DNA of 64,000 nt, from positions 124,001-188,000 of the forward strand of contig NZ_BMHH01000001.1 of assembly GCF_014640615.1 (NCBI RefSeq). Reading direction: 5' to 3'. Every line of letters begins with the position of its first letter. Position 1 is the stretch's first letter. Of the stretch, positions 12,638-29,345 are shown in pieces. This DNA comes from Paramesorhizobium endophyticum. Its GTDB lineage: Bacteria; Pseudomonadota; Alphaproteobacteria; Rhizobiales; Rhizobiaceae. Made by a program: the position numbers and the translations under genes. The notes below the pieces were generated by a model. It worked only from the letters and a program-made list of their open reading frames with translations, was not told where the DNA came from and did not search any database.

Positions 12638-12711
12638 TGGGGAATAGGTTAACGGTAGACCCACGGACTCTGACTCCGTTAGTCCTGGTTCGAATCCAGG
12701 TTCCCCAGCCA
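12638..12711 (+). tRNA. tRNA-Gln (CTG anticodon)
   Basis: The acceptor arms TGGGGAA and TTCCCCA pair, the T-arm contains GGTTCGAATCC, and the anticodon loop CTCTGAC reads CTG, decoding CAG. The CCA end is encoded at 12709-12711. The gene's 3' end is the left attachment core of the integrated element and remains intact. Confidence 0.97.
12695..12711. other. attL core
   Basis: TCCAGGTTCCCCAGCCA, identical to 29329-29345. It is the 3' end of the tRNA-Gln gene, covering part of the T-arm, the acceptor strand and CCA. Confidence 0.92.
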
Positions 12712-12763
12712 ACGGTGTTTTTCTCAATGATTTCAAGCGTTTAGCGAACATTAGAAAATGCTA

Positions 12764-12772
12764 AGTGTTACA
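12764..12772. other. Candidate integrase arm site near attL
   Basis: AGTGTTACA, sharing GTGTTACA with two copies at the other end of the element (29235-29242 and 29248-29255). Position and repetition suggest arm-type binding sites, but no binding data exist. Confidence 0.35.
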
Positions 12773-12915
12773 CTCTTGTGGATGATCCACATGGGGTAAA
12801 CGGGCGGATATTGGCACATTCCCAATCATGACGAATCGCCGGGCCGGACTCTGGTCGGGGCGATCTTCAGGCGAGTGAGAAACCATGTTGTGAAATCCTC
12901 GCTGCACAACCTTGC

Positions 12916-13503
12916 GTGTGCGGAATCCGTCGCATATCAGAAGACGGCATTTTGAGTTCGGGGGCAGTCGGAATGTGTGCAGCGCTCATGCCATGGGCCA
13001 AATGGCTTGCGTTTAGCGGCTTGGTCTTGACGACAATTGCAGGTTTATTGCTAACATCTACAGCAACCAAGGTATATAAATGGATATCACGATTTGAGAT
13101 TCAAAATACATTTAACGCATTGAAGAAGATAGCAGCGAAACACGAAGCGCTTGAGAGGGCAACTACAATACCGCCATTGTTGGTTGGATCTGAAATAGTT
13201 TCAGATAGGCTTAATTCAAAGCGCAATGGCGGCCTTTTTGGTCTTGCTCCAGCAAGATACTCTTTGAGACGTGCGCATGATAAAATACGGAAGAACTTAA
13301 ATCTGTCACCGCAGGCGATAGAAAAACCTGCGCCGATATTACGCACGGATTTAATCGAACTCAGTCACAAACAGGTAAGAGAAGCTCTTGAGCGCTCGCT
13401 AGACAATACTGTGCTTTCTGAAAACCGCTACTTTAAATTGGCGGTATGGACCTTCATTATTGGATCATGCTTACAGTTGGTTGCGAGTTGGCCTAGCTGC
13501 TAA
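12916..13503 (+). CDS. Hypothetical membrane protein
   Basis: A 195-residue protein of unknown function. A hydrophobic helix near the N-terminus (WLAFSGLVLTTIAGLLLTST) and another near the C-terminus (VWTFIIGSCLQLVASW) flank a charged central region, so it is probably a two-helix membrane protein. A start at 12973 (MCAALMPW) is plausible and would place the first helix closer to the N-terminus. Base composition is more AT-rich than the host, fitting recent acquisition. It is the leftmost gene of the element, transcribed towards the regulator genes. Confidence 0.6.
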   Translation: MCGIRRISEDGILSSGAVGMCAALMPWAKWLAFSGLVLTTIAGLLLTSTATKVYKWISRFEIQNTFNALKKIAAKHEALERATTIPPLLVGSEIVSDRLNSKRNGGLFGLAPARYSLRRAHDKIRKNLNLSPQAIEKPAPILRTDLIELSHKQVREALERSLDNTVLSENRYFKLAVWTFIIGSCLQLVASWPSC

Positions 13504-13574
13504 AAAAAACAGCATAGCGGCATTCTCCCCGATACTTGTTGTCGAATCCAGCACCTGCCTCTTGAGATAACAAA

Positions 13575-13602
13575 AAGCCCGCCGGTTTTCATCGGCGGGC
13601 TT
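13575..13602 (-). terminator. Rho-independent terminator of the 13.6-14.9 kb operon
   Basis: A ten-bp stem AAGCCCGCCG/CGGCGGGCTT with an eight-base loop. Read leftward it is followed by a run of T, so it ends the two-gene minus-strand operon just upstream. It may also stop the converging gene at 13503. Confidence 0.8.
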
Positions 13603-13639
13603 CGTGTTTAGTTGTGGCAAGCGGGCCGACGACGCGGCA

Positions 13640-13888
13640 CTACTTCCGCCTATAGGTCCAGATTTCACGGAACGTAGCAGGACTAAGTTCCCGCTGCATA
13701 TAGTCCTCAGTCAGAGAATCGGCCCGTGTGCGATCAATAAGGGCGGCGGGCGTCATAAACTTCTTTTCTAAAAGCTCATCGATAGCTTGCGCCGACAAAC
13801 CCCAGCGCTCATATTCCACCTTAGCATCGCGGCGATGAACATGTGTGGCATAGTCTGCCGCCGCACGAATATCTTCATGGTCAAGCAT
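13640..13888 (-). CDS. Hypothetical small protein of the element
   Basis: An 82-residue charged protein, no family recognised. It contains a YERWGLSAQAIDELLEKKFM segment that could form a helical, possibly DNA-binding, unit. ATG at 13888 overlaps the stop of the upstream gene as TGATG, so it is translationally coupled to it. It ends before a strong terminator. Confidence 0.6.
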   Translation of the reverse strand: MLDHEDIRAAADYATHVHRRDAKVEYERWGLSAQAIDELLEKKFMTPAALIDRTRADSLTEDYMQRELSPATFREIWTYRRK

Positions 13889-14865
13889 CAAGCAGTTTCC
13901 TTATTTTCGTTGATAAGAATCTGATGGAAAGTCCAACTATCGGCCTTAGATAAAAGGGACCGGAAGGCTTCGAGATCGTCGCCAAGGCGCTCCCGGATAA
14001 AGTCGGCGGCTTCGTAGGCCGTCTGGCGCTGAAGGTCGCGTTCCACCTGCCGCGCCTCATGTTCCCTTTGCTGTTCTTCCTCACGCTTCTGCTTCGCCTT
14101 GAGGCGGTTATCCTTCTCGCGCGCCTTCTTCGCCGTCGCGGTTTCCCACTTTTGGCGCTCCTTCTGGATTTCGGCTTCCGTCTTTCCGGCTCCGGTCAGT
14201 TCTTTCGCTCGCGCCTGCCATGCCTGTTCGTCCTCGCGCTTCTGGCGCTCTGCTTCGGCCTGCTCGTGCTCTGCCTGCTTCCGGGCGCGTTCTTCGTCCG
14301 CTGCCCGCTGCCTAGCCTCCGCAATGCGGCGTTCCACGTCCTGCTTTGTTGGGACCACGCCGGATGTGATTTCCTGAACCACCGCATTACGCACGTCTTC
14401 CGGGGTTGCCTTCGCGGCCAACTTGTAGACCGTGGCGGGCGGAAGGATTTCAACAACCTTTGGCACATCGGCGAAGTGCAACGCGGTGTTGATGTAGTTC
14501 CATGCCGAACCCTTCGACATTTCAAATTCGATCTTCAACCACTTATCGAAATGGCCGGAAATGCTATCCTTGATCCTGATAAGGTCTTTGCCTGTTTCGA
14601 TAAGGCCAGCGACAGCGGCGCGGTGACGGCTGTTGATGCGCGAAGCGGTCGCCTGTAGCTCTGCGGCCTCGCTTGCTTCCAAGGAAGCATAGAAAGCATC
14701 GCGTTCGTTCGCGGGCGCGGTCGGTAAGGCCGGGATGGCCGGGACAGAAACCACAAGGGCCAAAGGTGCCGGTTCAGGTGCAATGCTCGTGCCGCTGCTG
14801 CTCAAATCAAGATCGGCAAGCGTGTCATCAGGATCGGCGATGATTGTATTTGCGAGTGCTGCCAT
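13888..14865 (-). CDS. DUF3102-like coiled-coil protein
   Basis: A 325-residue protein. The middle part (GKDLIRIKDSISGHFDKWLK, then FEMSKGSAWNYINTA) resembles DUF3102/plasmid-phage proteins that carry a short HTH-like unit. It is followed by about 130 residues very rich in E, K, R, Q and A, a probable long coiled coil. ATG at 14865 is chosen because AAGGAGG lies just upstream; the longer frame has no such site. A role in DNA binding or regulation is inference only. It is the first gene of a two-gene operon. Confidence 0.65.
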   Translation of the reverse strand: MAALANTIIADPDDTLADLDLSSSGTSIAPEPAPLALVVSVPAIPALPTAPANERDAFYASLEASEAAELQATASRINSRHRAAVAGLIETGKDLIRIKDSISGHFDKWLKIEFEMSKGSAWNYINTALHFADVPKVVEILPPATVYKLAAKATPEDVRNAVVQEITSGVVPTKQDVERRIAEARQRAADEERARKQAEHEQAEAERQKREDEQAWQARAKELTGAGKTEAEIQKERQKWETATAKKAREKDNRLKAKQKREEEQQREHEARQVERDLQRQTAYEAADFIRERLGDDLEAFRSLLSKADSWTFHQILINENKETA

Positions 14866-15013
14866 ATTGTCCTCCTTCGCGTGTCTAACGGTTGGACAGG
14901 GACAAGGCGGCAAGCAATGCTTTGTCCCTGCGACTAACGGGACTTCCCATTAGTCACATATTTCGTTGGTTTTCAAAAGGATTTCATAGGTTAATGACAA
15001 GTGCCTGATTTTA

Positions 15014-15217
15014 TTAAGCAACTAGGCGCGCTGTCATGTCCTTCCCTTCGTTCAAGCAGTCCTCCGGCCATATGCCGCCATCCTCGCCCACCGCCTGAAC
15101 AAGTTGGGTGCGAAGGTCGTCGGGCGCTGCCGGGTCGAACGTCCGGGCGATGTGCTCCAGCTTGTCGAGCATGGTGTGGTAGGTGTCGCTGGCGATGTAG
15201 ATATCCTGATTGGTCAT
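15014..15217 (-). CDS. Hypothetical small phage protein
   Basis: A 67-residue acidic protein, no family recognised (MTNQDIYIASDTYHTMLDKL start). ATG at 15217 has GAGGGAG about six bases upstream. It is divergent from the ribbon-helix-helix gene across a palindrome-rich gap, suggesting shared control. Confidence 0.55.
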   Translation of the reverse strand: MTNQDIYIASDTYHTMLDKLEHIARTFDPAAPDDLRTQLVQAVGEDGGIWPEDCLNEGKDMTARLVA

Positions 15218-15241
15218 TTGCGGCTCCCTCTGCAAATCAGT

Positions 15242-15290
15242 AACCGCTTGTTAAACGGTTTCGTTTAATCCGTCAATAAACGATACCGTT
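15242..15290. promoter_or_regulatory. Candidate operator array between divergent small genes
   Basis: Inverted repeats AACCG-9-CGGTT (15242-15260), AAACG-4-CGTTT (15253-15266) and AACG-4-CGTT (15279-15290). The last two have centres 25 bp apart and share the AACG-N4-CGTT pattern. They lie upstream of the ribbon-helix-helix gene, which may bind them. Confidence 0.45.
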
Positions 15291-15345
15291 AACGTGAGGG
15301 AAATCCGGTTGACCAAGATAGGCGATAGCGAATATGGAGCGGTGT

Positions 15346-15519
15346 ATGGGTAGACCTCCTTTGAATATGAACGCGACAACACTTCGGTTTCCGGCGGAAA
15401 CGCTGAAACGGATTGATGATCTTGTCGGTAAGAAGCACCGCGCGAAGTTCATTCGCGAGGCGGTTGAGCGTGAACTTGAGCGGGCAGAAAAAGCCCTCCC
15501 ACCAAATTCAGAAAAGTGA
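15346..15519 (+). CDS. Ribbon-helix-helix DNA-binding protein
   Basis: A 57-residue protein. TTLRFPAETLKRIDDLVGKK forms the strand-helix portion and KFIREAVERELERAE the second helix of a CopG/Arc-type RHH dimer. ATG at 15346 is preceded by GGAG; an earlier ATG at 15334 lacks such a site. No toxin gene is adjacent, so it is more likely a repressor of this element's divergent promoters than an antitoxin. Confidence 0.7.
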   Translation: MGRPPLNMNATTLRFPAETLKRIDDLVGKKHRAKFIREAVERELERAEKALPPNSEK

Positions 15520-15811
15520 GAGGGCTGCCGGACGCGAAAGAATGGAAGCCGCCGCGTCCGGCGTTCTTGTTTTCCTCAACCTCAACCGGCCACGAGAAAC
15601 CCGGCTGACACTTACCTTATAGCGCTCGCCGGGATGGGATGCAGACGATTGTGAGCGAAAAGGAAAACCCTCGCCGGGAAGGTGATGGAATGTCGGGATG
15701 GGTGTCACTCGGTCGCCTTCGGCTCCCTCCCTGCGCGGCCTTCGGCCTTGCCCGCTCGCTTGCGCTCGCGAACTATCTTCAGTTTCTGCTATCAGATGTT
15801 TTCTTCATGAT

Positions 15812-15920
15812 ACCTGCGGAAATAGGCTTATCCCCCCTTCGACTGAAACAGCACATAAGACCGACGCAAAGGTCGGCGGCTATTCGTTCCAGTCGAGGGG
15901 ATTTCCTGCGTCTAACAGGT
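15812..15920. ncRNA. Candidate structured RNA
   Basis: Nested pairing over about 110 bases: ACCTG with CAGGT (15812/15916), GGAAAT with ATTTCC (15818/15901), CCCC plus TCGACTG with CAGTCGAGGGG (15834-15845/15890-15900, one bulged base), AAC with GTT, and an apical hairpin CCGAC-GCAAAG-GTCGG (15861-15876). The DNA alone cannot show the transcribed strand. No family recognised. Confidence 0.35.
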
Positions 15921-16310
15921 GGTGAAGAGCTATTGTAGGGTCGTTTCCCAACTAGGCGGCTTCCATTTGCCTAGCGTTGCTCCGATATCCTGCCCTTGCG
16001 GGCAAAGCGGTAAGCGCCACGTTCGACTTTCCTTCAATCGATACGTGACAGGACGTTGTGGTTGCTGATCCTGTCAGCTTTTCACATTGCGTCCATCTTT
16101 TATTGCATCCATTTCACGCGGTTGCCCGGTGCGGCGATAACCCTGCTGAAGCGTCCGATGTTCTCCATCGGGGAGCCGGTCAGCACGATCTTCCGTTCGT
16201 CTCTGGCGGACTGATAGCGCCGGTCAGGTTCCCGGTGTCGCCCTTCGTATTCAAAGCCAGTATAGTTCTTTCGGAGCTAACGACACTCCGGAAGATTTGC
16301 CGCTCTGGCC

Positions 16311-16340
16311 TTGACAAAATAGAACGAAAATTCTACTTTG
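16311..16340 (+). promoter_or_regulatory. Promoter with overlapping palindrome
   Basis: TTGACA (16311-16316), an 18-base spacer and TACTTT (16335-16340). The palindrome TAGAA-6-TTCTA (16321-16336) lies within the spacer and touches the -10, the usual place for a repressor site. Confidence 0.5.
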
Positions 16341-16346
16341 ATATTC

Positions 16347-16409
16347 AAGCAGTTAGCGGCTGCTTATTCTCTAGATGCCCGGCGGAAAGCACACGCCGGG
16401 CATTTTTTG
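16347..16409 (+). ncRNA. Candidate short regulatory RNA
   Basis: The transcript expected from the promoter at 16311-16340 is about 63 bases. It holds a hairpin AAGCAG/CTGCTT (16348-16366) and then a nine-bp terminator hairpin followed by TTTTTT. It has no start codon with a ribosome site. It runs towards the 3' end of the tape measure gene. Confidence 0.45.
16377..16409 (+). terminator. Rho-independent terminator
   Basis: TGCCCGGCG (16377-16385) pairs perfectly with CGCCGGGCA (16395-16403) around a nine-base loop, followed by six T. Confidence 0.85.
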
Positions 16410-16426
16410 CATTATAGCGAAAAATT

Positions 16427-16493
16427 TGTGCGAACGCACAAATTGCTGTTGATTTCTACATTATAGCCGAACGCACTGTATAAGTGAATACTT
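16427..16493. repeat. Short palindromes and direct repeats next to the tape measure gene
   Basis: TTGTGCG-AA-CGCACAA (16427-16442) is a perfect palindrome. AAGT-GAAT-ACTT (16482-16493) is a second one. CATTATAGC followed by GAACGCAC occurs twice (from 16411 and from 16460). They lie 3' of the phage operon; they may be protein-binding sites. Confidence 0.4.
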
Positions 16494-16511
16494 ACTTTCT
16501 GACGTGGCGAA

Positions 16512-19175
16512 TTAGCGGTTTCGCTGGTTCATGTAGTTGCCGGGGCGTGTCTGCTTGCGAAGCTCGTCCGCAACCATCCCTCTCATGCTCTGCTCCATCT
16601 GCCGGGCCATTTTCGCGGCGAGGTCGGCATTCTGTTCCGGCGTCCCGGCGCTGCCGTTGACGGTGATTGGCGCGGAAATGGTGATCTGTTGAACCGGGGC
16701 GGGATCGCTACTGTTCGCTGCCTTCAGGTCCGGCTTACGGATCGAGGGCGCGCTACCGACATGGCCGCCTTCAGCATAGCCACGAAGCGCGCCATGGTGC
16801 AGGGCTTCAAGGTTGCCGACGCCGATACGGCGCGTTGCTTCCTTCGAAATCACATATTCGCCCTTATGCACGATACCCGCCGGTTCATGCTTGCCGCCAG
16901 CACCGGTAAAGCCGCCCTCGCTGAAGCCGAACAGGAAACCAAGAATGCCGCTGCCGACGCCGCCTAAACCGCCAAGCGGTCCCTTACCAAGAAGCGCGGC
17001 CTGAAGTGCCGCGTCAATCAGGCTGTTAATCAGGCCGCGAACTGCGCCGTTCAAGTCCTGAGTGCCGGTCAGAAGGCCGGACAGGGAGGAAGTGAAGGTT
17101 TCCGCGAAATATTGCTGCGCGGTGCGCAAGCCTTCGGCGCTGGTGGCCGCCTGCTGGTTCGTCTGGTCAAGCTGCTGGGTGAGCGTGATCTTCTCGCGGA
17201 TTTTCTGAAGCTCCTGCTCCGAAAGCGTGATCCCCGCCCGCTTCATCTCCTGTTGGTAGCGGTAAACCTCAAGCTCAATCCGCTGATGTTGCGCCGACAT
17301 GCCGGAAATCGATTGCTCGAAACGGGCGAGGTCAAGACCTTCCTGCACCGACTGGTTCAGGCTCTTCCGGGCCACGTCCTGCTGTCTCAACAGTTCGGTG
17401 CGCTCCCGTTCGCTGTCGGTCGGGGCAAGCGGCTGCGGTGCGGTCGGGGTGCCGGAATAGGCGTTGCGGATCGTGCTGTCATCGACACGGCGCAAGCCCT
17501 CCCATTCGTTGCGAAGCTCTGCCGGATCGTTGCCACGACGACGAAGCAAGGCGCGGGCAAGTTCGTCCTGGGTGTCCTGATCAAACAGCCGGTCGCCGGA
17601 CAGGCCAAGCTCTTTGATCAAGCCTTCAAGGGTCGCGCCGGTGATCTGGTAGCGGCCAAGCGCGGACGAACCCTTGCCGTCGCCATAAAGGGCGCGGTTC
17701 GCCGGATTGGCGAGCATACGGCGCTGGAGCGCGCGAACCTGATCAAGCGTCATCCCGGTAAGGTTTTGCGCGCCGCCGGTCCAGCGTCCATTGTCGAGCG
17801 TGGCGTTATAGTCCCCGCCGCTTTCCACGGCTGCAATCAGGTCGAGAATGTTATCGTGCTTGCCGAACCGGGCAACGCTCTTGGCGCGGTTTGCAAGATC
17901 GGTTGCGTTCATAATCTCGCCCATGGTCCGGGCGTTCCCCACGGCTTTCCGATAAGCGGCGTCAATGCTGTCCACCGTGGCGAGGGTGTCCAGTTCGGCC
18001 TTCAGTTCCGGCACAAGCTTTTTCAGGTCGGCGAGCGCATTCTTGAAGTTTGCCGCTGCGGTGACGTTGCCGTTGAAGCCGTTGGAAAGGCTGTTGGTTG
18101 CGGCGGAAAGTTCCTTGAGTGCTTGCTTGAACTCGTCGCTTCCGCCCGTCACCGCATGAATCTGGTCATCAACGGCGGACAGGGCGGCGCGAAGCTGGCG
18201 AAGCTCTGCTTCCTTCACGGGATTGAACGGTTCGGCTTCGACGGCGGCAATCTGGCGTTCGATCTTCGCCCGTTGTGCCTGAAGGCGCTTAAGCTGTTCT
18301 TCCGGGGAGTTGTAGCGGTCAATTACGGCCTGCTTGCGCTTGCCGCCCGGATCGCCGGGGTTATTAATGTAATCGATGATCTGCGCGGCCACGCCGACGC
18401 CAGTAATTGCCGCCTGCTTGGCGTAAACGGTGAAGTTCCGCCACATGGTCGAAAACTCGCGATCGATCTTCTTCGCCGCTTCGATCTGTTCCGCGCTGAA
18501 GGTTGCGGCTTCATCGCGCATACGCTGGATTTCGGAAACGGACAGGCCAAGCACCTTCGCAAGCTGTTCAGCGCCGGTTCCTCCAAAAAGCTCGTCAAGG
18601 ATACGGGTCTGCGCTGCGGCGTCCAACTGCTGAAGCTTGCCGATGATTTCATCAAGGAAGCGGGACGGGTCTTTCAGCTTCTGCGCAACATCGGTCGCGG
18701 TATAGCCAAGGCGCTCGAAAGCCTCCTGCGCGCTGCCCTTGCCAGTCGTGGCGAACTCGTCGCCGCGAAGGTTCAATTCCTTCAAGGCGTCGGTCACGCC
18801 GTCAATGCTCATGCCGGTAGCGGTCGCCACATAGCTCCATTGCTGCCACACCTTGGAGGAAACACCGGCCTTGCGGGCCTCGCGGTCAACTTCAGCAATG
18901 GAACTGGCAATCTCCCTCACGGCGATGGCCGCGCCGCCGACGCCTGCGACGATAGCGCCGCCGCGCATGAGCGGCGTGAACATGCCTTCAAGCTTGCTTC
19001 CGATAGAGGCCGACGCCGCTCCAAGGGTCTTTTCCATGTTTTGGGCCGACTGCCGGGCGCGGCCTTCCATCTTCTTGAAATTGTCATTGGTGGCGTTGCG
19101 GGCGCGCGCCATGTCCTTCTCGTATTTGTTCACGCGAGCCTCAAGGCTCACAAGCAGGCGTTGCGTGTCTTCCAT
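16512..19175 (-). CDS. Tail tape measure protein with lysozyme-like domain
   Basis: An 887-residue protein. The N-terminal coiled region (1-100) and GGAIVAGVGGAAIAVREIAS are typical of tape measures. Residues about 441-548 form a muramidase/transglycosylase-like insert: AAVESGGDYNA with a likely catalytic glutamate at 451, then SSALGRYQIT. The C-terminus has GGFTGAGGKHEPAGIVHKGE, a lambda-type tape-measure ending. In siphophages it sets tail length and helps cross the peptidoglycan. It is the last gene of the leftward operon, where tail tip genes would normally follow but none do. Confidence 0.9.
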   Translation of the reverse strand: MEDTQRLLVSLEARVNKYEKDMARARNATNDNFKKMEGRARQSAQNMEKTLGAASASIGSKLEGMFTPLMRGGAIVAGVGGAAIAVREIASSIAEVDREARKAGVSSKVWQQWSYVATATGMSIDGVTDALKELNLRGDEFATTGKGSAQEAFERLGYTATDVAQKLKDPSRFLDEIIGKLQQLDAAAQTRILDELFGGTGAEQLAKVLGLSVSEIQRMRDEAATFSAEQIEAAKKIDREFSTMWRNFTVYAKQAAITGVGVAAQIIDYINNPGDPGGKRKQAVIDRYNSPEEQLKRLQAQRAKIERQIAAVEAEPFNPVKEAELRQLRAALSAVDDQIHAVTGGSDEFKQALKELSAATNSLSNGFNGNVTAAANFKNALADLKKLVPELKAELDTLATVDSIDAAYRKAVGNARTMGEIMNATDLANRAKSVARFGKHDNILDLIAAVESGGDYNATLDNGRWTGGAQNLTGMTLDQVRALQRRMLANPANRALYGDGKGSSALGRYQITGATLEGLIKELGLSGDRLFDQDTQDELARALLRRRGNDPAELRNEWEGLRRVDDSTIRNAYSGTPTAPQPLAPTDSERERTELLRQQDVARKSLNQSVQEGLDLARFEQSISGMSAQHQRIELEVYRYQQEMKRAGITLSEQELQKIREKITLTQQLDQTNQQAATSAEGLRTAQQYFAETFTSSLSGLLTGTQDLNGAVRGLINSLIDAALQAALLGKGPLGGLGGVGSGILGFLFGFSEGGFTGAGGKHEPAGIVHKGEYVISKEATRRIGVGNLEALHHGALRGYAEGGHVGSAPSIRKPDLKAANSSDPAPVQQITISAPITVNGSAGTPEQNADLAAKMARQMEQSMRGMVADELRKQTRPGNYMNQRNR

Positions 19176-19185
19176 TCGTAAATTC

Positions 19186-20820
19186 CTATGCTGCCTCCGC
19201 CATCAGGCGGTCCAGTTCGTCGGGGTCCATGTCAAGGATTGAGCGCTGGTTATCGTTCGCGGCGGCACGGGATACGGCGAGCGCCGACGCAATAGCGCCG
19301 TCGATATGATTGCTGTGGCGGGTGCCTTTGTGCATCGTGGTCAATTCGCTGGCGCTGGTCGCGCGCTTCACCACGACGCTTTCAAAGTGATTGCGAAGGA
19401 TCGGGTGCGCGCCGTGCCGGATGCGCTTGCCGTTGACGATGCGCTCAAGGTCGCAAATCGGGCCGTGCATATGCTTCGCCGTCTGCGGAAGCTGAAGCAC
19501 GTTGATACCGTGCTCCATGAGCTTCGCCATGATCGGCCCGGCAAGCGAAGGATCAAAGATAACTTCCTTCACATCATAGGTGCCGCAAAGATTGATGATC
19601 TGGTCGGCAATGGCGTCCGGTTCAATCACGGGGCCGTCGATGACATTCAAAAGCTTGTCGTCGCGCCAGCGGGGATAAGGAACCTGCTCAACCTTGGCTT
19701 TATCCTCCAAGCCTTCGGATGGCAGGAAAAACCACGGCTGCACCGAAATCCGCCCGTCATCATGTCGCCACGCGCCGACGATGGCCGTAAGATCGCCGGA
19801 ACGGGACAGGTCAACACCAAGCCAGCATGGCAACGGTTCCAGTTCAGTCAGGTCAAAATGCGGATCATACCCGGCGTCATAGACGGCCATGTCAAACAGC
19901 GGATCGCGGGAAGCGGCCTGCCAAATATTCAAATGAAACTGCTGGAATGCAAAGCGTTCGGCGGGCCGGTGCTCTGCTTCGCGCGCCATGGTGCGCAAAC
20001 CGCCAAGATCGGGAAAGCCGTGTTTCAGGCCGGGATTGACCTTGTGCCACACGTCTTCATCGCGCCAGTCGTCGCCGGGGTCGGCTTCAAAGATAATTGG
20101 CAGAAATGAAGGATCGTCAATTTCCCCCGTCGCCACCTTCCGGGCATAGTCGTAAAGTTCGAAACCGATATTTTCCTGCCCCCGGCCTGCCGTGGTGGCG
20201 ATAATCATGAGGGTGTCAGAAACCTTCGCCATGCCGGATTTGAGCGCTTCCCAGAGGTCACGATTTTTCCAACAGTGGATTTCATCGACAAGCACGAAGC
20301 TGGGGGTTTTTCCATGTTGCGCTGCGCCATCACTGGATACGGCGAGAAGTTCGGCCTTGTTCGGGCGCGAAATGATCTTCTTCGCCGAATTGTGCGCGTC
20401 ATAGATGCGGGTCGCGGCGACAAGGCGGCGGTCTTCCCGCACAATGTTTGCCGCTTCCTTGAAGCCGATGCCCGCCTGTTCGCGGTCGGACGCGGCAAAG
20501 ATGGCCTGTCCAGCCGGGCGCGCTTCCGGCCCGATGGTGTGGAGAAGCGCCCACGCTGCGGCGATGCTGGTTTTGCGGTTGCCACGGGGAAGCATGAGAA
20601 AGGCCGTGCGGACCTCCCGCGTTCCATCCGGGTTACGCGGGCCGTAAATCCGCCGCGTCATGCGCTCCTGAAAATCGAAAAGCTGGAAGCGGCCTTTCGG
20701 CCCGGTGCTGGCCGGGTGCTTCAACGCACGGATGAAATCAACCGCCTCCTGCCCGTATCCGAATGGATCGGGGATCGGCGAGCCGTCATAAATCCAATGC
20801 GGGAACGCGCTCTTGCTCAT
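19186..20820 (-). CDS. terL: Phage terminase large subunit
   Basis: The DNA-packaging motor ATPase and headful nuclease, 544 residues. The Walker A variant LPRGNRKTS lies at 77-85, Walker B FVLVDE at 175-180, and the RNase H-like nuclease starts with LGVDLSRSGDLTA and includes HIDGAIASALA near the end. Its start overlaps the terS stop by four bases. No frameshift or missing motif is seen, so the packaging motor looks functional. Its position, near the distal end and after head-tail genes, is unusual. Confidence 0.94.
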   Translation of the reverse strand: MSKSAFPHWIYDGSPIPDPFGYGQEAVDFIRALKHPASTGPKGRFQLFDFQERMTRRIYGPRNPDGTREVRTAFLMLPRGNRKTSIAAAWALLHTIGPEARPAGQAIFAASDREQAGIGFKEAANIVREDRRLVAATRIYDAHNSAKKIISRPNKAELLAVSSDGAAQHGKTPSFVLVDEIHCWKNRDLWEALKSGMAKVSDTLMIIATTAGRGQENIGFELYDYARKVATGEIDDPSFLPIIFEADPGDDWRDEDVWHKVNPGLKHGFPDLGGLRTMAREAEHRPAERFAFQQFHLNIWQAASRDPLFDMAVYDAGYDPHFDLTELEPLPCWLGVDLSRSGDLTAIVGAWRHDDGRISVQPWFFLPSEGLEDKAKVEQVPYPRWRDDKLLNVIDGPVIEPDAIADQIINLCGTYDVKEVIFDPSLAGPIMAKLMEHGINVLQLPQTAKHMHGPICDLERIVNGKRIRHGAHPILRNHFESVVVKRATSASELTTMHKGTRHSNHIDGAIASALAVSRAAANDNQRSILDMDPDELDRLMAEAA

Positions 20821-22686: not shown

Positions 22687-23172
22687 TCAAGCCTTCTCTG
22701 AAAAAGTTATATTGTCGCTGGCTTGTAAAGTGCTCCCCGCGCCGGTTCCGTCTGAAGGGCCAAAGTTGGAGGATACCCCCGGCCTATGCGCCTTTTGCAT
22801 CCGCTTGCCCGCCTCATTGACGGTTCCGGTCAAAGCGTCCTCTATGGTCCAGCCACGGGCAAGACGGCTGCGGATCGTGTGGGATGAAAGGCCGGTAGCT
22901 TCGGCCCACTCCTTTAGGGTGCGGGTGTGACCAAAGGCGCTGTAGAGCTTGGCTTTGCGCGCGTGGGTGCGGGCCGTCTTATCGGTCGCCGCCTTGCGGG
23001 GAGGTCTTGGCTTGAGACTGCCCTTCGGCTCCTGCCGCTTTATCCAGCGCTCTACTTGCTGGTTGCGGGATGGCTTTCCGGCGAGTAGCGCATAGGCGCG
23101 TTCCCGGATGGCTGCGCATTCGGCTTCAAACTCCTGCCTCTCGATCTGGCGGGCGTGTTCTGCCGGGGTCAT
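22687..23172 (-). CDS. Putative DNA-binding protein with HTH
   Basis: A 161-residue basic protein. The segment TLKEWAEATGLSSHTIRSRL followed by GWTIEDAL is a helix-turn-helix of the type often found beside phage HNH genes. Flanking parts are basic and low-complexity. ATG at 23172 overlaps the HNH stop (ATGA), indicating coupled translation. A packaging or regulatory role is possible but not shown. Confidence 0.65.
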   Translation of the reverse strand: MTPAEHARQIERQEFEAECAAIRERAYALLAGKPSRNQQVERWIKRQEPKGSLKPRPPRKAATDKTARTHARKAKLYSAFGHTRTLKEWAEATGLSSHTIRSRLARGWTIEDALTGTVNEAGKRMQKAHRPGVSSNFGPSDGTGAGSTLQASDNITFSEKA

Positions 23173-23522
23173 AGGCTCTGCTCTTGCCGCTGCTTGACGC
23201 TGTTGTGGCAAGGCTCGCAAAGCGCTTGCCAGTTGGCGCGGTGCCAGAACAGGCGCTTGTCGCCACGGTGCGGAATGATGTGGTCAACCACGGTAGCAAG
23301 ACGGGTGATGCCGTGGTTGCTACATTCCCGGCAATGTGGGTGCATGGCGAGGTATTCGGCGCGGGCCTTGCGCCATTCATGGTTATAACCGCGCTCGCGG
23401 GCAGAAGGTCGCCGGGCGTCATGGCGGGCGTTGCGTTCCTGCTTCGCCTTGCGCTGACATTGGCAAAGCTCGCCATGCGGCACGATGCTGCCGCACGAAC
23501 AGATGCGGGGCGGCTTGCTCAT
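23169..23522 (-). CDS. Phage HNH endonuclease
   Basis: A 117-residue HNH nuclease: two zinc-binding cysteine pairs (CRECSN near the middle and CEPCHN), DHIIPHRGDKRLFWHRAN as the core, and LCEPCHNSVKQ at the end. In HK97-like phages such proteins work with terminase during DNA packaging. Its position inside the structural operon, far from terL, departs from the usual HNH-terS-terL order. Confidence 0.9.
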   Translation of the reverse strand: MSKPPRICSCGSIVPHGELCQCQRKAKQERNARHDARRPSARERGYNHEWRKARAEYLAMHPHCRECSNHGITRLATVVDHIIPHRGDKRLFWHRANWQALCEPCHNSVKQRQEQSL

Positions 23523-24157
23523 GCGCCACCTGCAATCTTTGCCTTGAGGGCGCGAAGCCCGGCACGGTCAAATTCCGGGTCAAGACCTTCGGCGACATTG
23601 CGCGCGGCCTGTTCGGGGTCTGGCTTCTTCGGGGTCGGCTGCTTGTCGTCGTCGCTGCTGCCGTGAACGGCCTTCAACTTGGCGATATGGCCGGAATAGG
23701 CGCGGTCGATTTCGGTCGGCGTGGCGTTCCATGCCTGTTCAGGCGTCCAGCCAAGCCAGCCGGTCGCCTTCTCATACTGGTCTGCATAGAAATCCGCCCA
23801 TGCAACCGCCTTGCCGGAAGGGGCTGCCATGGTCGTGTCCAACTGTTGGACAGGTGCAGGCATGAGCATGGAAACGAGTTCGGCAAGCGGGATGCGCGCG
23901 ATGCCGATGAAAGAGGATAGCGGCCTTCCTGCCGCTTCTGAAAGAAGGAAGGCCGCTGCATCATCCCGGCTATCGGTCGCCGTCAGGATGATTTCGGAAA
24001 TGATGGAAAAGTTACCTTCGGCAAGCGCCCGGAACATGGTCTGGAAGCCGAAACGTGCTTCAAGGGTAACAGCGGCCCGCAAGGAAGGGCGAAGCGTCAC
24101 GGTGCTGCCCCCGTGCGCAATCGTTACCTTCTCGTAGGCGGGCCGCTGGTAGGTCAT
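23519..24157 (-). CDS. Tail assembly chaperone-like protein, two-part
   Basis: A 212-residue protein. The N-terminal half (VTLRPSLRAAVTLEARFG, then SIISEIILTAT) resembles the GTA_gp10/tail assembly chaperone domain. The segment LGWTPEQAWNATPTEIDRAY resembles the short second chaperone of gene transfer agents and siphophages (the rcc01693 type). The two parts, usually separate or joined by a frameshift, are in one frame here. The assignment is from residue patterns and is tentative. Confidence 0.6.
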   Translation of the reverse strand: MTYQRPAYEKVTIAHGGSTVTLRPSLRAAVTLEARFGFQTMFRALAEGNFSIISEIILTATDSRDDAAAFLLSEAAGRPLSSFIGIARIPLAELVSMLMPAPVQQLDTTMAAPSGKAVAWADFYADQYEKATGWLGWTPEQAWNATPTEIDRAYSGHIAKLKAVHGSSDDDKQPTPKKPDPEQAARNVAEGLDPEFDRAGLRALKAKIAGGA

Positions 24158-24160
24158 GGA

Positions 24161-25714
24161 TTAGGCCGCAACCTTCAGCTTCACAAAGCGGTCGGGGTGC
24201 GTCACGTCCGCGCCGACGCGCTTCCGGGCATGGAAACGAACCTGCCCCTTACCCGCAAGGGTGTAGGGGTCGCGAAGCGTCGAAAGCCCCACGCGGTCGA
24301 TGATACGATAGCCGGACATATCGCCGAACAGGATCGGGTTCTTGCCCGCGCCGATATCGTCCATGTCGGGCATTTCAACAATCGGACGGCCAAGCAGGGT
24401 CATGACGCCGCCTGCGGTGATCGGATCAAGCACGAGGTAACGGCCCGTGCTGTCCTTCCACTGGCGAATGACGGAAAGCGTGTTGCGGTTCATCAACCAA
24501 ACGCCGGACTGCGCGTGGGTCGTGGCAATCTGGTGATACATGCCGATGATTACGTCTGCCGGGTTCGCGGTCGGGAATGCGGCGGCAACGCCGGTCTTCA
24601 CTTCCTTGATACCAGTCGCGGCCATGATACCCTTGGGCTGGCCGGTGCCGGTTCCCTTCACGAACGCCAAACCCTCGGTCTTTCCGAAGCTTTCGGCGTA
24701 GTCGGCGATAAGCTCACCTTCCAGCCCATAGGCGTTGTCTTCCAGAAGCTGGTTTGAAATGTCGGTAAAGGTCGCCAGTTCGAACGGCGTAAGCGTGACC
24801 TGTTCAAACGCCATGCCGCTTTCGGTGCGGTCGCCGGTTTCGTCCACCCACGTTGCAGCGGTGCCGGACAGGCGGCGCGGATACTTGATTTCGGGCGCGG
24901 AAATCGAGACGACGCGCGCATAGCTGCGGATCGGGGAATACTCGTTCAACAGCTTGATAAGCTCGTTGCCGAATTCTTCCGGTGCCAGATATCCGCCGTT
25001 CGCGCTGTCCGAAACGGTGAGCGCCTTGACTTCTTCCGGGCTGATCCGCTCAACGCCACGGCGAAGATAGGAGACGAACGCCTTGCGCTCGCTGTTGTCG
25101 TTCTGTGCCGCCGGGTGATTGCTGTTCGCTGCAAGCGGGCGGTTCGCCTTGGCTTCCAGCTTATCCATGCGGGCTTTGAGGGCCTTTACTTCTTCCGGCG
25201 TGACAACCGGATCATTCTTCACTTCGATTTCTGCTTCGTTTTCCAACTTGGTTTCCTTCAGTTCCGCCGCGCCATCTGCGGCTTTGATCGATGTAATTTG
25301 CGCGCCGGGATGGCTGGGAACGGCGACAACAGAGATTTCATGCAGGTCGAGCGCCGTAATCGTGCGCCCTCGCTGGCGGGGCTTCGCGGCCTTGGTGCGG
25401 AAGCCGATGGACAGGCCGGACACGGCCTTGCTGCGGATCATGGCGCGAACCTCGCGGGCGCGCTCCACGTCATCGACAAGCAAGCGGCCCTTGACGGTCA
25501 GGCCGTCCGGTGTCTCGCTGATTTCGTCCCATACGCCGATAACCTGCGCCTGATCGTGGGCGAACAGCATCGGCAACATGTCCGGCGAGGTGAACGCGCC
25601 TTTTTCAATGATATCGCCGACACGATCCGGCGAGCCGAACGGCCATGCAATGCCGGTGATGGTGCCAGCATCGTCAACCGTGAGCGCGGCCTTGATTTCG
25701 AGGCGTTCGCTCAT
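24161..25714 (-). CDS. Fused HK97-type prohead protease and major capsid protein
   Basis: 517 residues. The first 150 are a U35-type prohead protease with the catalytic H53 (FAHDQ) and S102 (GLSIGF), and LHEISVVAVP. A charged linker (VTPEEVKALKARMDKLEAKA, about 172-191) takes the place of a scaffolding delta domain. Residues about 210-517 are an HK97-fold capsid protein (GGYLAPEEFGNELIKLL, GTGTGQPKGIM, C-terminal VRFHARKRVGADV). ATG at 25714 overlaps the upstream stop. Natural fusions are known but uncommon. Confidence 0.92.
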   Translation of the reverse strand: MSERLEIKAALTVDDAGTITGIAWPFGSPDRVGDIIEKGAFTSPDMLPMLFAHDQAQVIGVWDEISETPDGLTVKGRLLVDDVERAREVRAMIRSKAVSGLSIGFRTKAAKPRQRGRTITALDLHEISVVAVPSHPGAQITSIKAADGAAELKETKLENEAEIEVKNDPVVTPEEVKALKARMDKLEAKANRPLAANSNHPAAQNDNSERKAFVSYLRRGVERISPEEVKALTVSDSANGGYLAPEEFGNELIKLLNEYSPIRSYARVVSISAPEIKYPRRLSGTAATWVDETGDRTESGMAFEQVTLTPFELATFTDISNQLLEDNAYGLEGELIADYAESFGKTEGLAFVKGTGTGQPKGIMAATGIKEVKTGVAAAFPTANPADVIIGMYHQIATTHAQSGVWLMNRNTLSVIRQWKDSTGRYLVLDPITAGGVMTLLGRPIVEMPDMDDIGAGKNPILFGDMSGYRIIDRVGLSTLRDPYTLAGKGQVRFHARKRVGADVTHPDRFVKLKVAA

Positions 25715-26091
25715 TCGGACACGTCCGCATAAGCAGCGTCGATTGCTGCGGCGAGATCGCCGGACGCTGCGGCCTGTCCGGTTTCGTCCTGGTCCGGCTT
25801 GCCGTTCCATCTGGTATCCAGAATGTCGAACGCGAGCGGGAAGATTTCCATGATGGGGCGCGGCTTGGCGTAGGTATCGACAAGCACCTGCGCTTCCGCC
25901 GGGGAGGTGCCGCCGCCAATAAGGCCGGTGCGGATGATTTCGACCATATCCGCGAAGTGGAAATCCTGCCGCATGAAGCGGCCATAGAGCGCGGCAATCC
26001 CAACGCCGGTCTTGCGCTCCAATTCGTGAATCATTTCGGTTGTGAGGGCGAATGTCTTTTCGCCGTCACCAAAATAGGCGGTATGGTGCAT
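25711..26091 (-). CDS. GTA_gp10-like tail protein
   Basis: A 126-residue acidic protein: FALTTEMIHELERKTGVGIA, then FADMVEIIRTGLIGGGTSPA and a proline/aspartate-rich end. The layout matches the gene transfer agent gp10 family of small tail-assembly proteins. It lies between portal and protease-capsid, where a tail gene is unexpected. It starts just before the portal stop. Confidence 0.7.
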   Translation of the reverse strand: MHHTAYFGDGEKTFALTTEMIHELERKTGVGIAALYGRFMRQDFHFADMVEIIRTGLIGGGTSPAEAQVLVDTYAKPRPIMEIFPLAFDILDTRWNGKPDQDETGQAAASGDLAAAIDAAYADVSE

Positions 26092-27324
26092 TTAGGCTGT
26101 TTCCTTCGGCTGCGGACGTTCCGCCGGGCCGGTCGTGGTTGTGGTGACGTAGGGGTTTGCCAGTTCGTCGCCGTCGGGCAGGGCGGGCAGGTTCATTGCG
26201 GCGCGGACTTCGTTCGGGGTCATGGCGCGCATGGCGACAAGCTTCCCGAAGATTTCGGCCCGGCCCGCCGCGTCGGCGCGCTGAAGATCGTCAATGACGA
26301 ATTCGAAATAGAGGGTGTCGCGTTCTTCGTCCGTCAACAGGACGGTTGCATAAGCGTCCTGCCATTTGTCCAGCCATGGGCGAAGGCAAAGCTGAAGGAA
26401 GCTCGCCGCCATCTGTTCGGCATTGCTCCACGTCGCGCGCTCAAGCTGATAGAGCATGTGCGGCGGGACGCCGAAAATGCGGGCAATCTCGTTGATTTGC
26501 TCAAGGCGGTTTTCAATGAACTGCGCGTCTGTGCTGGTCATGACGGGCTGTTCAAATTTCCAGCCAGCATCAAGAATGAGCGGATCGCCGTTGGCGCTGC
26601 GCCGCCACTTGCGCCATGAGGTCAGGATATTCGCAATCGTGGTCGCGCCAGCCTCGCCGCCTTGCTTCGCTTCGTTCCAGATAATGCCGCTGGGACGAGC
26701 GCCGGAACCAAAGAACTGTGAGGTGTGGCGTTCAAGGATCGCTGCCACGCCGATGGCTTCCCGGCCAAGCTTGATCGGCGAAACGCCAGCGAAGGCCGGG
26801 ATATAGAGAACGTCACGGTAAGAAAGCTCGTCCTGCCCGCGTTCGGTCGAGACAAGGTAATAGGGTTCGCCGTCATCCTCGCACCTGCGCTGCACCTTCG
26901 ACGGGTCTAGCCGGTGAAGCTCAAGCGGGCGGTTGTCGGAAGCGCGGACAACCTGCGCATAGCCCGCGCCATGAAGCAGGGCGTCAACCGTAAGGTCAAC
27001 ACGAAGCTGCCCGGCACTCGTCCAGTCATTCACGCGGCTATGGGTGAGCTTATGGCCGGTGTGAACCTTCGCCGCTTCCTTGCTGCCATCGGTTTCCCGA
27101 TAGAGCTTGCAAGGCAACGAGCCGATGGTTTCGGAGATAAGCCGGACGGCCTGAAGAACTGCCGGGACGTGCATCGCGGAATAGCCAGTCACGGCGATGC
27201 CGGATGCGGTAGGGATCACGCCAAAGATTTCATTGATGGCGGGATCGGTGAGGGAATACGCTTTCTGTTCTGCCGGGAAGCCAAGGGCTTTCTTTGCACT
27301 CGAAACAATACCGGCAAAATTCAT
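26092..27324 (-). CDS. HK97-family phage portal protein
   Basis: A 410-residue portal. Family features are VPAVLQAVRLISETIGSLPC, HRLDPSKVQ, the GARPSGIIW region, QFIENRLEQINEIARIFGVP and a C-terminal AMTPNEVRAAMNLPAL. It forms the dodecameric vertex through which DNA enters. It is the first gene of the leftward operon, after the integrase, preceded by palindromes at 27334-27371. Confidence 0.94.
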   Translation of the reverse strand: MNFAGIVSSAKKALGFPAEQKAYSLTDPAINEIFGVIPTASGIAVTGYSAMHVPAVLQAVRLISETIGSLPCKLYRETDGSKEAAKVHTGHKLTHSRVNDWTSAGQLRVDLTVDALLHGAGYAQVVRASDNRPLELHRLDPSKVQRRCEDDGEPYYLVSTERGQDELSYRDVLYIPAFAGVSPIKLGREAIGVAAILERHTSQFFGSGARPSGIIWNEAKQGGEAGATTIANILTSWRKWRRSANGDPLILDAGWKFEQPVMTSTDAQFIENRLEQINEIARIFGVPPHMLYQLERATWSNAEQMAASFLQLCLRPWLDKWQDAYATVLLTDEERDTLYFEFVIDDLQRADAAGRAEIFGKLVAMRAMTPNEVRAAMNLPALPDGDELANPYVTTTTTGPAERPQPKETA

Positions 27325-27333
27325 TCATTCCGT

Positions 27334-27371
27334 CCTCAATTCAACTTGAGGCGGATTGTCTCATAATGAGA
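27334..27371. promoter_or_regulatory. Palindromes upstream of the structural operon
   Basis: CCTCAA-6-TTGAGG (27334-27351) lies ten bases before the portal start and could form a leader hairpin. TCTCAT-A-ATGAGA (27359-27371) is a perfect 13-bp palindrome further upstream in an AT-rich region. The gap 27325-27420 probably holds the operon promoter. Confidence 0.45.
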
Positions 27372-27420
27372 ACAGAAAGTGAATCCTATAAATCACAAAA
27401 TTTGATGAATTTTTGATAAT

Positions 27421-29211
27421 TCATCTAAATAAGTGATCTATTTTCAGGCCGGGATACGCAATCGCATTTACCAGTTCCAATCGCTGTTCAAGGATACCTT
27501 GGGGCAAAATGCCATAAATGCCGGTCGTGCTGGCTTTGGTGTGTCCAAGGATGAAGCCGAAATTCTCATCGAGATAACCAGCACGGCGAAGGGCGTCTGC
27601 CGCGCCATGGCGGAAGCTATAGAGGGACAGACCGCGACCGTTCTTCATGCCAAGCCTGATAAGGTAGCGCCCAAACTCGCGGCTGAAATCGGCAATCATC
27701 TGGCCGCGCGAATTTCGTTCAGCGAGCGGAAAAAGGCGGGTCTGTCCTGCCTTCTTCATACCTGCGTGGTAATCGAGGAAACCAAGCTTCACGAGTTCCT
27801 TATGAACCGGGACGACACGCATTGAACCTTCGGTTTTAACGCTCTTATCCCCCTCCCCTTCTTCGGTAATATGCATGATCCAATGGCCGTGCTCCTGCCG
27901 AACGTCCGAAACGGCAAGCTGCGCAATCTCTGCCGGGCGAGCGCCGGAATAGAGCATGATCAATGGAACCCAATAGCGATGATCCCGAATAAGGACATTC
28001 CCCAGCTTATTCCAAAAACGGGGTGCGTCGTCGCTCTGGCATCCGGTGAAAAGCGGCGACTTGAACAGGGTGTTCATTTGATCGGTAGTGAATACCTTTT
28101 TAGATTTTTCCTTCTTCTTCGCGAGGAACATATCAGCTACCGGATTGCTATCGATATAGCCGCTATCAGTGAGCCAGCCACAAAATGCGCCAAGACTGGA
28201 AAGATAGCGGTTGACGGTGCGCGGCGTGAGAACTGGCTTCCCTACGGTTTCATTGTGCTTGACGATCTGCGCAAGCTTCATGCCTTCGAACGCCTTCGTC
28301 TCTGTCGCCTTCACGGGATACTTCATTAAGAGCGCCTTCCATTCGCGGACGGCCTTCTTATCGATCCGCTGCACGGGGCAAGTGCTGCCGACATGCTGAA
28401 GGAAGGTGCCGATATCGCGGCGGGCCTGATTGAGCGTGTCGGCGGTGATGCTTTTGGGATTCTCGCGGGCGTAGGTGTCGAATAGCTCCATGATGCTTTC
28501 CCCCGGCGCTGCGGTTTCGCGGGCGGTGCCGGTCGCGGGCTTGACGATAGGGTCTTTCGGAACGCCGGAATAATCGCCATTGTCGCGTTCAAGGGTGCGC
28601 TGCAAGCCTTCAATTTCGGCCCGCGTCATGAGGGTGCAAAGCTCGCGGTATTCATCCGAGCCGACTTCCACAAGCAGGCGATGACGGGCGATGAAGTCCC
28701 GGACGGCGGGTTCGATTAGCCTAATATCGCCGGAAGTAAGAGCGAGCTTACTTGCTGCCAAACGGCGCGCTCGCAAATTGGCGTCGTCGGTGCGAGCGCG
28801 AAGCATAAGCTCATAGTCGGTGTAGGCGTTGATCATGCCGATGAAATCGTCGGAATTGATTTCGCCCATATCGATACGACGATAGAGCCGGTGCAATTCT
28901 GCTTCCGTCTGGTCGGGCGTCGGCATGTCGCGGCGCTTCTGTTCGTCGCGCTGAAGCGTCGTCTCATAGTGCTGCCATACGGCTGCGGCCTTGTCGTCGG
29001 GCGTGATATCGCGGCGGGAACGAAGGTCTTCAAACTGCCGGTTCCAGCCTTCAACTACGGGCCACATTTCCCGCTTGGCTATGTTCTCATCCTTGGTGCC
29101 GAGCGCCTTCACCAACTCCTTCTTACCGACGATTTCGACAAGATCGGTCGGAACCTTGACGCGAGCATAGTAGCTTGCACCACGCCGGAGAAGGTAACTT
29201 ATACGCGCCAT
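27421..29211 (-). CDS. int: Tyrosine recombinase (phage-type integrase)
   Basis: A 596-residue integrase, longer than usual because of an extended N-terminal region (a DUF6538-like start, ISYLLRRGASYYARVKVP). The core-binding region lies at about 235-365. The catalytic domain carries the first arginine in LYSGARPAEIAQL, SFRHG with R534, GHTKA with H557 and the nucleophile Y566 (GIYG). The usual first histidine of box II is a tyrosine (Y531). It lies 117 bases from the right attachment core and should recombine the element at the tRNA-Gln end. No excisionase is obvious. Confidence 0.92.
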   Translation of the reverse strand: MARISYLLRRGASYYARVKVPTDLVEIVGKKELVKALGTKDENIAKREMWPVVEGWNRQFEDLRSRRDITPDDKAAAVWQHYETTLQRDEQKRRDMPTPDQTEAELHRLYRRIDMGEINSDDFIGMINAYTDYELMLRARTDDANLRARRLAASKLALTSGDIRLIEPAVRDFIARHRLLVEVGSDEYRELCTLMTRAEIEGLQRTLERDNGDYSGVPKDPIVKPATGTARETAAPGESIMELFDTYARENPKSITADTLNQARRDIGTFLQHVGSTCPVQRIDKKAVREWKALLMKYPVKATETKAFEGMKLAQIVKHNETVGKPVLTPRTVNRYLSSLGAFCGWLTDSGYIDSNPVADMFLAKKKEKSKKVFTTDQMNTLFKSPLFTGCQSDDAPRFWNKLGNVLIRDHRYWVPLIMLYSGARPAEIAQLAVSDVRQEHGHWIMHITEEGEGDKSVKTEGSMRVVPVHKELVKLGFLDYHAGMKKAGQTRLFPLAERNSRGQMIADFSREFGRYLIRLGMKNGRGLSLYSFRHGAADALRRAGYLDENFGFILGHTKASTTGIYGILPQGILEQRLELVNAIAYPGLKIDHLFR

Positions 29212-29233
29212 TTCTGCCCCCGTGTAGCATCCC

Positions 29234-29255
29234 GGTGTTACAGTCTGGTGTTACA
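29234..29255. other. Tandem GGTGTTACA repeats near attR
   Basis: Two direct copies of GGTGTTACA (29234-29242 and 29247-29255), 13 bp apart, between int and the right core. The shared GTGTTACA also occurs near attL. They are candidate integrase arm sites or an autoregulatory site for int. Confidence 0.4.
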
Positions 29256-29328
29256 ACATTGGGAAAAATAGGTCAATAAAATCAAATAAATAAAAGAAAA
29301 CAAAGGGCTGAAAAAAGTTGGATTTTGT

Positions 29329-29345
29329 TCCAGGTTCCCCAGCCA
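29329..29345. other. attR core
   Basis: Direct repeat of the tRNA-Gln 3' end, 17 of 17 bases identical to 12695-12711. The rest of the tRNA is absent here. Confidence 0.92.

Follow-up and report, generated by a model that had tools for sequence, protein, structure and literature searches.

A putative capsid-forming phage satellite with its own tape measure in Paramesorhizobium endophyticum and related Alphaproteobacteria

A 64,000-nucleotide stretch of the Paramesorhizobium endophyticum genome (contig NZ_BMHH01000001.1, positions 124,001 to 188,000; hereafter the window) carries an element of 16,651 bp, both terminal repeats included, which is inserted at a tRNA-Gln gene and which is probably a capsid-forming phage satellite with its own head, neck and tape measure, from whose gene content we infer that the tail tube, tail tip and lysis functions are borrowed from a siphophage. 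The lineage to which it belongs appears, from sequence comparison, to span Hyphomicrobiales and Rhodobacterales. A more specific proposal is that the satellite has lost its tube gene and kept the genes whose products contact the tube, and that it sets the length of a tail made of helper tube and the fit of that tail to its head, supplying the ruler and not the material; we would put the chances of this at about even.

The ends of the element are marked by an exact 17-bp direct repeat, TCCAGGTTCCCCAGCCA, at 12695-12711 and 29329-29345, the first copy being the 3' end of the tRNA-Gln (ctg) gene at 12638-12711 on the forward strand (ARAGORN; Rfam RF00005). As in a satellite, an integrase is combined with attachment (att) repeats at a specific site, and genes that would complete and release a particle (tube, tip, lysis) are not recognised among the window proteins. 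All of the module is encoded on the reverse strand and in leftward order comprises a tyrosine integrase with a DUF6538 domain (27421-29211; PF00589, PF20172, phrog_1), the portal protein (26092-27324; PF04860, phrog_12), a probable tail assembly chaperone of the gene transfer agent (GTA) gp10 type (25711-26091; PF11836), a fused prohead protease and major capsid protein (24161-25714; PF04586 and PF05065, phrog_80 and phrog_10), a TAC_6-like tail assembly chaperone (23519-24157; PF09550 below cut-off, and phrog_7493, a family without a function), an HNH endonuclease (23169-23522; PF01844, phrog_2323), an HTH protein in a variable slot after HNH (22687-23172; PF04545 below cut-off, phrog_3377, phrog_1065), the head-tail connector Ad1 (22377-22679; PF05135, phrog_40), an HK97-gp10-like neck or tail completion protein (21959-22393; PF04883, phrog_5), the DUF3168 tail terminator (21546-21971; PF11367, phrog_176), a head closure protein (21224-21544; PF05521, phrog_25), the small (terS, 20817-21227; PF05119, phrog_83) and large (terL, 19186-20820; PF20441, PF03354, phrog_9) terminase subunits and an 887-aa tape measure with a lysozyme-like middle (16512-19175; PF10145, phrog_10574, phrog_430). 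The starts of the capsid, HTH, terminator and head closure genes were picked by us.

These identities, their order, the 16.6-kb size and the open, coupled leftward frames had been proposed in an earlier reading by a model that saw no database (the sequence-only reading), and all were borne out by Pfam and PHROGs scans of 20 window proteins, one of them from outside the element, by the 17-bp repeats and by gene junctions that overlap by a few bases, as at terS/terL and head closure/terS. Apart from one tube label that we doubt (see below), neither a tail tube nor a lysis gene was found in the element by the best matches of these scans or by a tail-tube hidden Markov model (HMM), as that reading had also claimed; the best matches assigned no lysis or replication function to any of the 20 proteins, and lower-ranked matches of the tape measure include families labelled endolysin and tail lysozyme. 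Two of its claims need qualifying: the tape measure closes the series of recognisable structural genes without being terminal, as it is followed by about 3.8 kb with a conserved small open reading frame (ORF), a conserved non-coding stretch and cargo-like ORFs, and the lack of a replication gene holds for the window copy within the searches made but not for the family, many members of which encode an HUH-like Rep.

Relatives were gathered with the protease-capsid protein, which gave 60 genome loci and the best 80 of 148 IMG/VR loci; together with one phage record, two plasmids and four regions of the own genome these made up a set of 147 loci (L numbers below), with all of which 17 window proteins were compared by tblastn. 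Because the set was gathered through the capsid, the presence of that gene in it is given by construction. Order was scored in 139 loci, those with five or more module genes on the plus strand, and the window order from portal to tape measure is kept exactly in 137 of them, the exceptions being L145, a circular record whose cut falls inside the tape measure, and L114, in which a single weak match is displaced. The integrase stands directly upstream of the portal in all 102 loci having both. These 139 loci are not a count of independent elements, since at least 12 IMG/VR contigs duplicate genome loci with identical match rows. Going by record titles the named hosts belong mostly to what we take to be Hyphomicrobiales and Rhodobacterales, and strains with a relative include Shinella zoogloeoides PQ7 and members of Paracoccus and Ruegeria; a close capsid was found in 22 of 297 genomes of the host family, the own genome included, and in 3 of 385 genomes sampled across the class.

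Flanks were fetched for 20 relatives and later for one more from a 58-kb IMG/VR contig, and 17 of the 21 have att-type exact repeats of 17-35 bp with one copy at a tRNA 3' end (of the remaining four, two are truncated at the integrase and in two no repeat was found). The bounded relatives use tRNA-Val, Pro, Gln, Thr or Leu, and the att-bounded elements, that of the window included, measure 16,471-18,529 bp, a narrow range that would fit a limit imposed by the element's own capsid. The same order was found at other tRNA-Gln sites, where the sequence-only reading had proposed to look for it: four relatives occupy a tRNA-Gln gene, the 17-bp repeat of two being identical to that of the window, and the integrases at these sites are 57-78% identical to that of the window over the best segment. 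The module is also found on a circular 17,494-bp plasmid of Paracoccus marcusii (L145, NZ_CP157016.1), for which no integrase is annotated and none was found with the window integrase, and the same head-packaging-tape measure module is found on a circular Methylorubrum populi plasmid (L217, NC_010721.1). A 16.9-kb plasmid of Roseomonas mucosa (L146, CP099479.1) has a more distant set of portal, protease, capsid and terL.

All 13 module genes have a low median ratio of nonsynonymous to synonymous substitution (dN/dS; Nei-Gojobori, 36-40 close, non-independent pairs per gene), from 0.06 for terL to 0.21 for the TAC_6-like gene, with 0.15 for the tape measure, 0.12 for the GTA-gp10-type chaperone and 0.37 as the highest single pair in any gene. 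Since the values are low in all module genes, the tail-related ones are evidently maintained for a function. Conserved order, att-bounded elements of 16.5-18.5 kb and purifying selection together support the view, already put forward in the sequence-only reading, of a capsid-encoding, satellite-like class.

That reading would have been overturned by the same order in complete phages, and none was found among 50,697 phage records or in the IMG/VR capsid and terL scans. Megablast of the module DNA gave no match in the phage records, and every capsid and terL match there is below 60% identity, the best capsid match being 36.4% (among 30 listed of 805 records) and the best terL match 33.3% (among 20 listed of 1,967). 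The IMG/VR terL scan, which works by peptide patterns and overlooked two longer contigs found by the capsid scan, gave 77 loci, 72 of which at 46% identity or more lie on contigs of 4.2-27.4 kb, the short ones being fragments; on the contigs above 30 kb in that scan the terL identity is 26-28%. The IMG/VR capsid scan lists 50 contigs of at least 14 kb, 46 of which measure 14.2-19.2 kb; the four longer ones are of 22, 27, 31 and 58 kb. On the 58-kb contig an element of 18,080 bp lies at tRNA-Pro, bounded by 26-bp repeats, and 40 kb from it is a second terminase that is 26% identical to that of the window; the contig therefore joins two elements and was ruled out as a complete phage. The 27-kb contig (L078) has the same match rows as L008, whose element spans 18.4 kb in L180. 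No terminal repeats of at least 15 bases were found in the 38 full-length contigs checked. These checks of long contigs left our confidence in the satellite and ruler proposals unchanged.

The tail genes of the element require closer consideration. The only tube label in the window is that given by PF11836 and phrog_8985 to the protein of 25711-26091. Tail tube proteins have a beta-sandwich fold; the AlphaFold2 model of this protein (mean predicted local distance difference test score, pLDDT, 91) is all-alpha with one beta-hairpin, unlike a tube, and we therefore doubt the label and read the protein, on the strength of the model, as a probable tail assembly chaperone. As Foldseek matched no solved structure to the model at E <= 0.001, this doubt rests on secondary structure and on general knowledge of the family. 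The TAC_6-like protein has a short C-terminal match to p43 of Sinorhizobium phage phi2LM21 (E 1.5e-4). The N-terminal part of the window tape measure is 43.5% identical over 209 aa to that of phi2LM21, a complete siphophage, and its residues 306 to 887 share stretches with RHph_X66.

Some relatives do have a recognisable tube gene. An iterated tail-tube HMM was discarded as it drifted into alternative frames of the capsid gene; a single-pass HMM from six seeds (L198, the C13 prophage described below, L016, L055, L060 and pMPOP02), some of which were reused from the iterated model, also picks up L023/L136, L116, L063 and a second copy in L198, and at E 1e-4 finds nothing in the window or in the remaining loci. 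The tube gene lies between the capsid and TAC_6 genes in L016/L116, L023/L136 and plasmid pMPOP02, and further downstream of the capsid in L055, L060, L063 and L198, the slot in L198 being that after HNH where the window has its HTH gene. Over 137 loci the gap from capsid to TAC_6 has a median of 16 nt. The simplest history would be that the tube gene was lost while its neighbours stayed; it may alternatively have been gained in a few lineages.

We would propose that the satellite excises in the presence of an active helper siphophage, and that it builds heads with room for about 17-18 kb from its own proteins and fills them with its own genome. Its tape measure and chaperones would nucleate on the helper tail tip and recruit helper tube subunits to a length fixed by the satellite ruler, after which the satellite terminator would cap the tail and fit it to the satellite neck; tube, tip, receptor binding and lysis would all be provided by the helper. 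Replication may depend on the HUH-like Rep in many relatives and might be helper-driven in the window copy, for which the conserved non-coding stretch is a candidate origin or packaging site.

Candidates for such a helper were sought in the own genome. A siphoprophage on contig C13 (L215-L216, G000:C13:50000-89999), most of whose genes were named by eye, has a 926-aa tape measure and is a possible helper; its tube is 44% related to the tube of L198 (G000:C2:78000-97999), a second and more distant element of the same class in this genome, which has two tail-tube-like genes and no match to the window's two chaperones.

Several observations weigh against the satellite proposal or the ruler proposal. 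The tape measure of the C13 prophage has no similarity to that of the window at E <= 1, so that tape-measure similarity gives no helper there, and no helper was identified; induction, packaging, helper use and the use of a foreign tail are deduced from gene content. A tape measure and terminator without a tube are unusual for a satellite, and an unrecognised tube could be present. The gap between capsid and TAC_6 exceeds 250 nt in 13 of 137 loci, the capsid-chaperone gaps of L022, L028, L031 and L049 contain unexplained small ORFs, and in elements of the L198 type the tube genes occupy a different slot. The predicted swapping of tape measures relative to terminase is unsupported, at none of seven close pairs among 22 elements with complete gene sets, and the module also lies on L110, an IMG/VR contig of 31 kb that is cut just before the portal and whose nature is unsettled. 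Two of the gap ORFs, of about 130-160 aa (L022:11476-12022 and L028:11500-12116), are possibly decoration or divergent tube proteins.

Alternatively the element might be a minimal siphophage that is autonomous, its tube, tip and lysis genes having diverged too far for recognition. Selection maintains the tape measure, the terminator and the chaperones alike, and some relatives have a tube gene, two have a lambda gpM-like gene and L192 a gpI-like gene. However, all conserved module genes except that of the HTH slot are already assigned other roles, the capsid-chaperone gap has a median of 16 nt, the genes after the tape measure differ among elements, no lysis match was found among 148 accessory ORFs (the PHROG part covering 25 of 41 families, as listed) and the att-bounded elements all fall within 16.5-18.5 kb; we consider this alternative unlikely. 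It is very improbable that the satellite uses the tail of the host's own GTA in place of a phage tail: the chaperone at 25711-26091 is of the GTA-gp10 type and a single tube gene of the PF06199 type lies on C7 of the own genome, in a cluster that looks GTA-like by eye, but the 887-aa tape measure is far above the length known for GTAs and the module also occurs on plasmids and across many hosts. Descent from a prophage that became defective or was reduced to a remnant, or domestication of a capsid cluster for a host function, would fit the unrecognised tube, tip, lysis and replication genes of the window copy and is just as improbable, given that constant order, tight size and tRNA att repeats, as well as selected integrases, plasmid forms and sporadic presence (22 of 297 family genomes), speak for mobility.

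A remnant was likewise rejected on the low dN/dS, in agreement with the sequence-only reading, which had argued against simple decay and which is supported by the order kept in 137 of 139 loci and purifying selection on 13 of 13 module genes; disrupted relatives of one larger prophage were not found, the order being constant and the ends sharp at tRNA repeats.

Returning to the satellite proposal, the region 3' of the tape measure is where its members differ in replication genes. Three distinct relatives (L074, L081 and L009/L083/L181) match the non-coding stretch of the window at 15236-16511 with 79-93% identity over 339-709 nt; two of the blastn matches, for example, cover 709 nt at 81% and 339 nt at 93%. 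Many relatives carry an HUH-like Rep gene in the place of this stretch. Within it, at 15696-15774 on the reverse strand, lies a three-hairpin motif around an invariant AAGGCCGAAGGCCGCGCAGG, a candidate origin or packaging site. Exact motif matches were found in 17 IMG/VR stretches, 16 of them on contigs with the module. The motif occurs in 6 of 17 complete elements, the window counted, and is found, exactly and once per genome, in 5 of the 297 genomes of the family, by which it was rejected both as a universal part of the elements and as a host repeat. Among 21 dereplicated elements of sufficient sequence length seven have the motif only, five Rep only, nine neither and none both; in L058/L196, excluded from the 21 for length, the motif sits inside the Rep frame. 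One reading is that motif and Rep are alternative replication origins, another that the motif is a packaging site. The motif, delimited more tightly at 15705-15765 in the window, is also present in L081 and L012, and in L240 and L243 it stands beside integrases, the capsid module being absent there.

The folding of the motif is less clear. It matches no Rfam family at the gathering threshold, and RNAalifold recovers the central hairpin only, in which both bases of one pair differ in 2 of 29 sequences; stems 1 and 3 seem misaligned. Folded singly, the window motif does no better than shuffled sequences (z -0.6); over 28 instances the hairpin upstream exceeds shuffled sequences in stability (mean z -2.1), whilst that downstream hardly does (z -0.7).

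The Rep protein encoded 3' of the tape measure gave 33 matches with 24 distinct sequences. HxHG and one tyrosine, the HUH signature, are invariant in 18 aligned sequences; outside these L205 reads HLQG, and the lysine after the tyrosine varies. Its model has a disordered first stretch of about 130 residues and a confident core (mean pLDDT 70), and the 15 best Foldseek matches are all Rep chains of adeno-associated virus, the best of which (E 0.003, probability 0.99) misses the 0.001 line; circovirus and nanovirus Rep follow at ranks 22 and 24 with unrelated folds in between. Signature and model suggest that the relatives' Rep is HUH-like. The L145 plasmid encodes such a Rep together with a Rep3-type initiator. 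In the window no HUH-like Rep was found, and 15236-16511 has no convincing similarity to Rep.

Accessory content was surveyed in 16 elements with 157 non-core ORFs of at least 65 aa, 148 of which were scanned; no lysis, primase or AlpA match was found among the 148 in Pfam (17 families) or in the 25 of 41 PHROG families listed for them. They include two gpM-like tail genes and one gpI-like gene (L192), to which three PHROG families labelled "tail protein" were traced. Genes 3' of the tape measure in L178-L196 encode a BglII restriction enzyme, methyltransferases, MT-A70, Abi_alpha, DUF4747 and NYN proteins, pentapeptide proteins are also found, and PADLOC matches four families; by its sequence this content looks like defence cargo. 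A match of two HTH-slot proteins (L182:7358-8344 and L196:11656-12390) to phrog_201, "Panton-Valentine leukocicin" (E 3e-5), was taken as chance because their better matches are HNH/HTH DNA-binding families. In the window the region beyond the non-coding stretch contains x73, a 73-aa ORF (15014-15235, reverse strand) for which 28 of the 147 loci have a tblastn match 3' of the tape measure, followed by three ORFs with no Pfam or PHROGs family: one of 341 aa with a coiled-coil-like C-terminus (13888-14913, reverse), one of 83 aa (13640-13891, reverse) with a 72% identical ORF in L070/L322, and one that is membrane-protein-like by eye and is probable cargo (12916-13503, forward).

If the proposal is correct it adds a capsid-forming satellite lineage in Alphaproteobacteria, and a satellite-encoded tape measure would offer a direct handle on tail length and on the matching of head and tail in chimeric particles. 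Furthermore the relatives with and without a tube gene at one junction would form a natural series of a phage becoming a satellite.

No description of the lineage was recognised in titles and abstract openings of the open-access literature, which does not establish its absence in print, and "satellite" does not occur in the accessible text of a survey of 103 alphaproteobacterial phages. Autonomous HK97-type siphophages differ from the element in that tube, tip and lysis genes are not recognised in the window or in the accessory ORFs of relatives. Phage phi2LM21 resembles it in the N-terminal part of the tape measure and the short TAC_6-like chaperone match; unlike the element it is 46.6 kb long, has a putative holin and has the conventional HK97/lambda-like order of terminase, portal, capsid, tube, chaperone, tape measure and fibres. 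With the Rhodobacter-type GTA the element shares a GTA-gp10-type chaperone and an HK97-type head. GTAs are anchored in the host, package host DNA and have a head-tail gene order without att sites, whereas the element carries an integrase, is bounded by att repeats at a tRNA gene and has its genes in another order.

Phage-inducible chromosomal islands (PICIs) carry an AlpA-type regulator and a primase/Rep replication module, and the capsids of capsid-forming PICIs (cf-PICIs) fall into three described clades. The element is like a cf-PICI in that it encodes its own capsid, portal and terminase. Those islands, such as EcCIEDL933, are described as having a mean size of about 14 kb and their own capsids (PMC10803314, PMC11389934) and as interacting with phage tails (PMC13345588), and an AlpA-type regulator is given as a feature of the phage-inducible chromosomal minimalist island (PICMI) model (PMC10803314). 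In contrast, no AlpA or HTH_17 match was found in the 20 window proteins or the 148 accessory ORFs, and there is no primase match, the relatives carrying an HUH-like Rep; the element is moreover alphaproteobacterial and has its own tape measure and chaperones, a distinction drawn from descriptions and not from gene order or sequences.

The Streptomyces satellites MulchRoom and MiniFlayer are described as having their own terminase, portal and capsid and no primase, and MulchRoom as having an integrase and a tail of its helper's length; the authors report no homologues of tail components in a sentence that names MulchMansion, evidently MulchRoom (PMC10690885). Compared by description, the element differs from both in keeping a tape measure, chaperones and terminator. 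Finally AH14b, a 16.8-kb satellite of Pseudomonas phage AH14a (PMC4936722), is like the element in size and in its satellite lifestyle, but as described it takes the capsid of its helper, whilst the element encodes its own.

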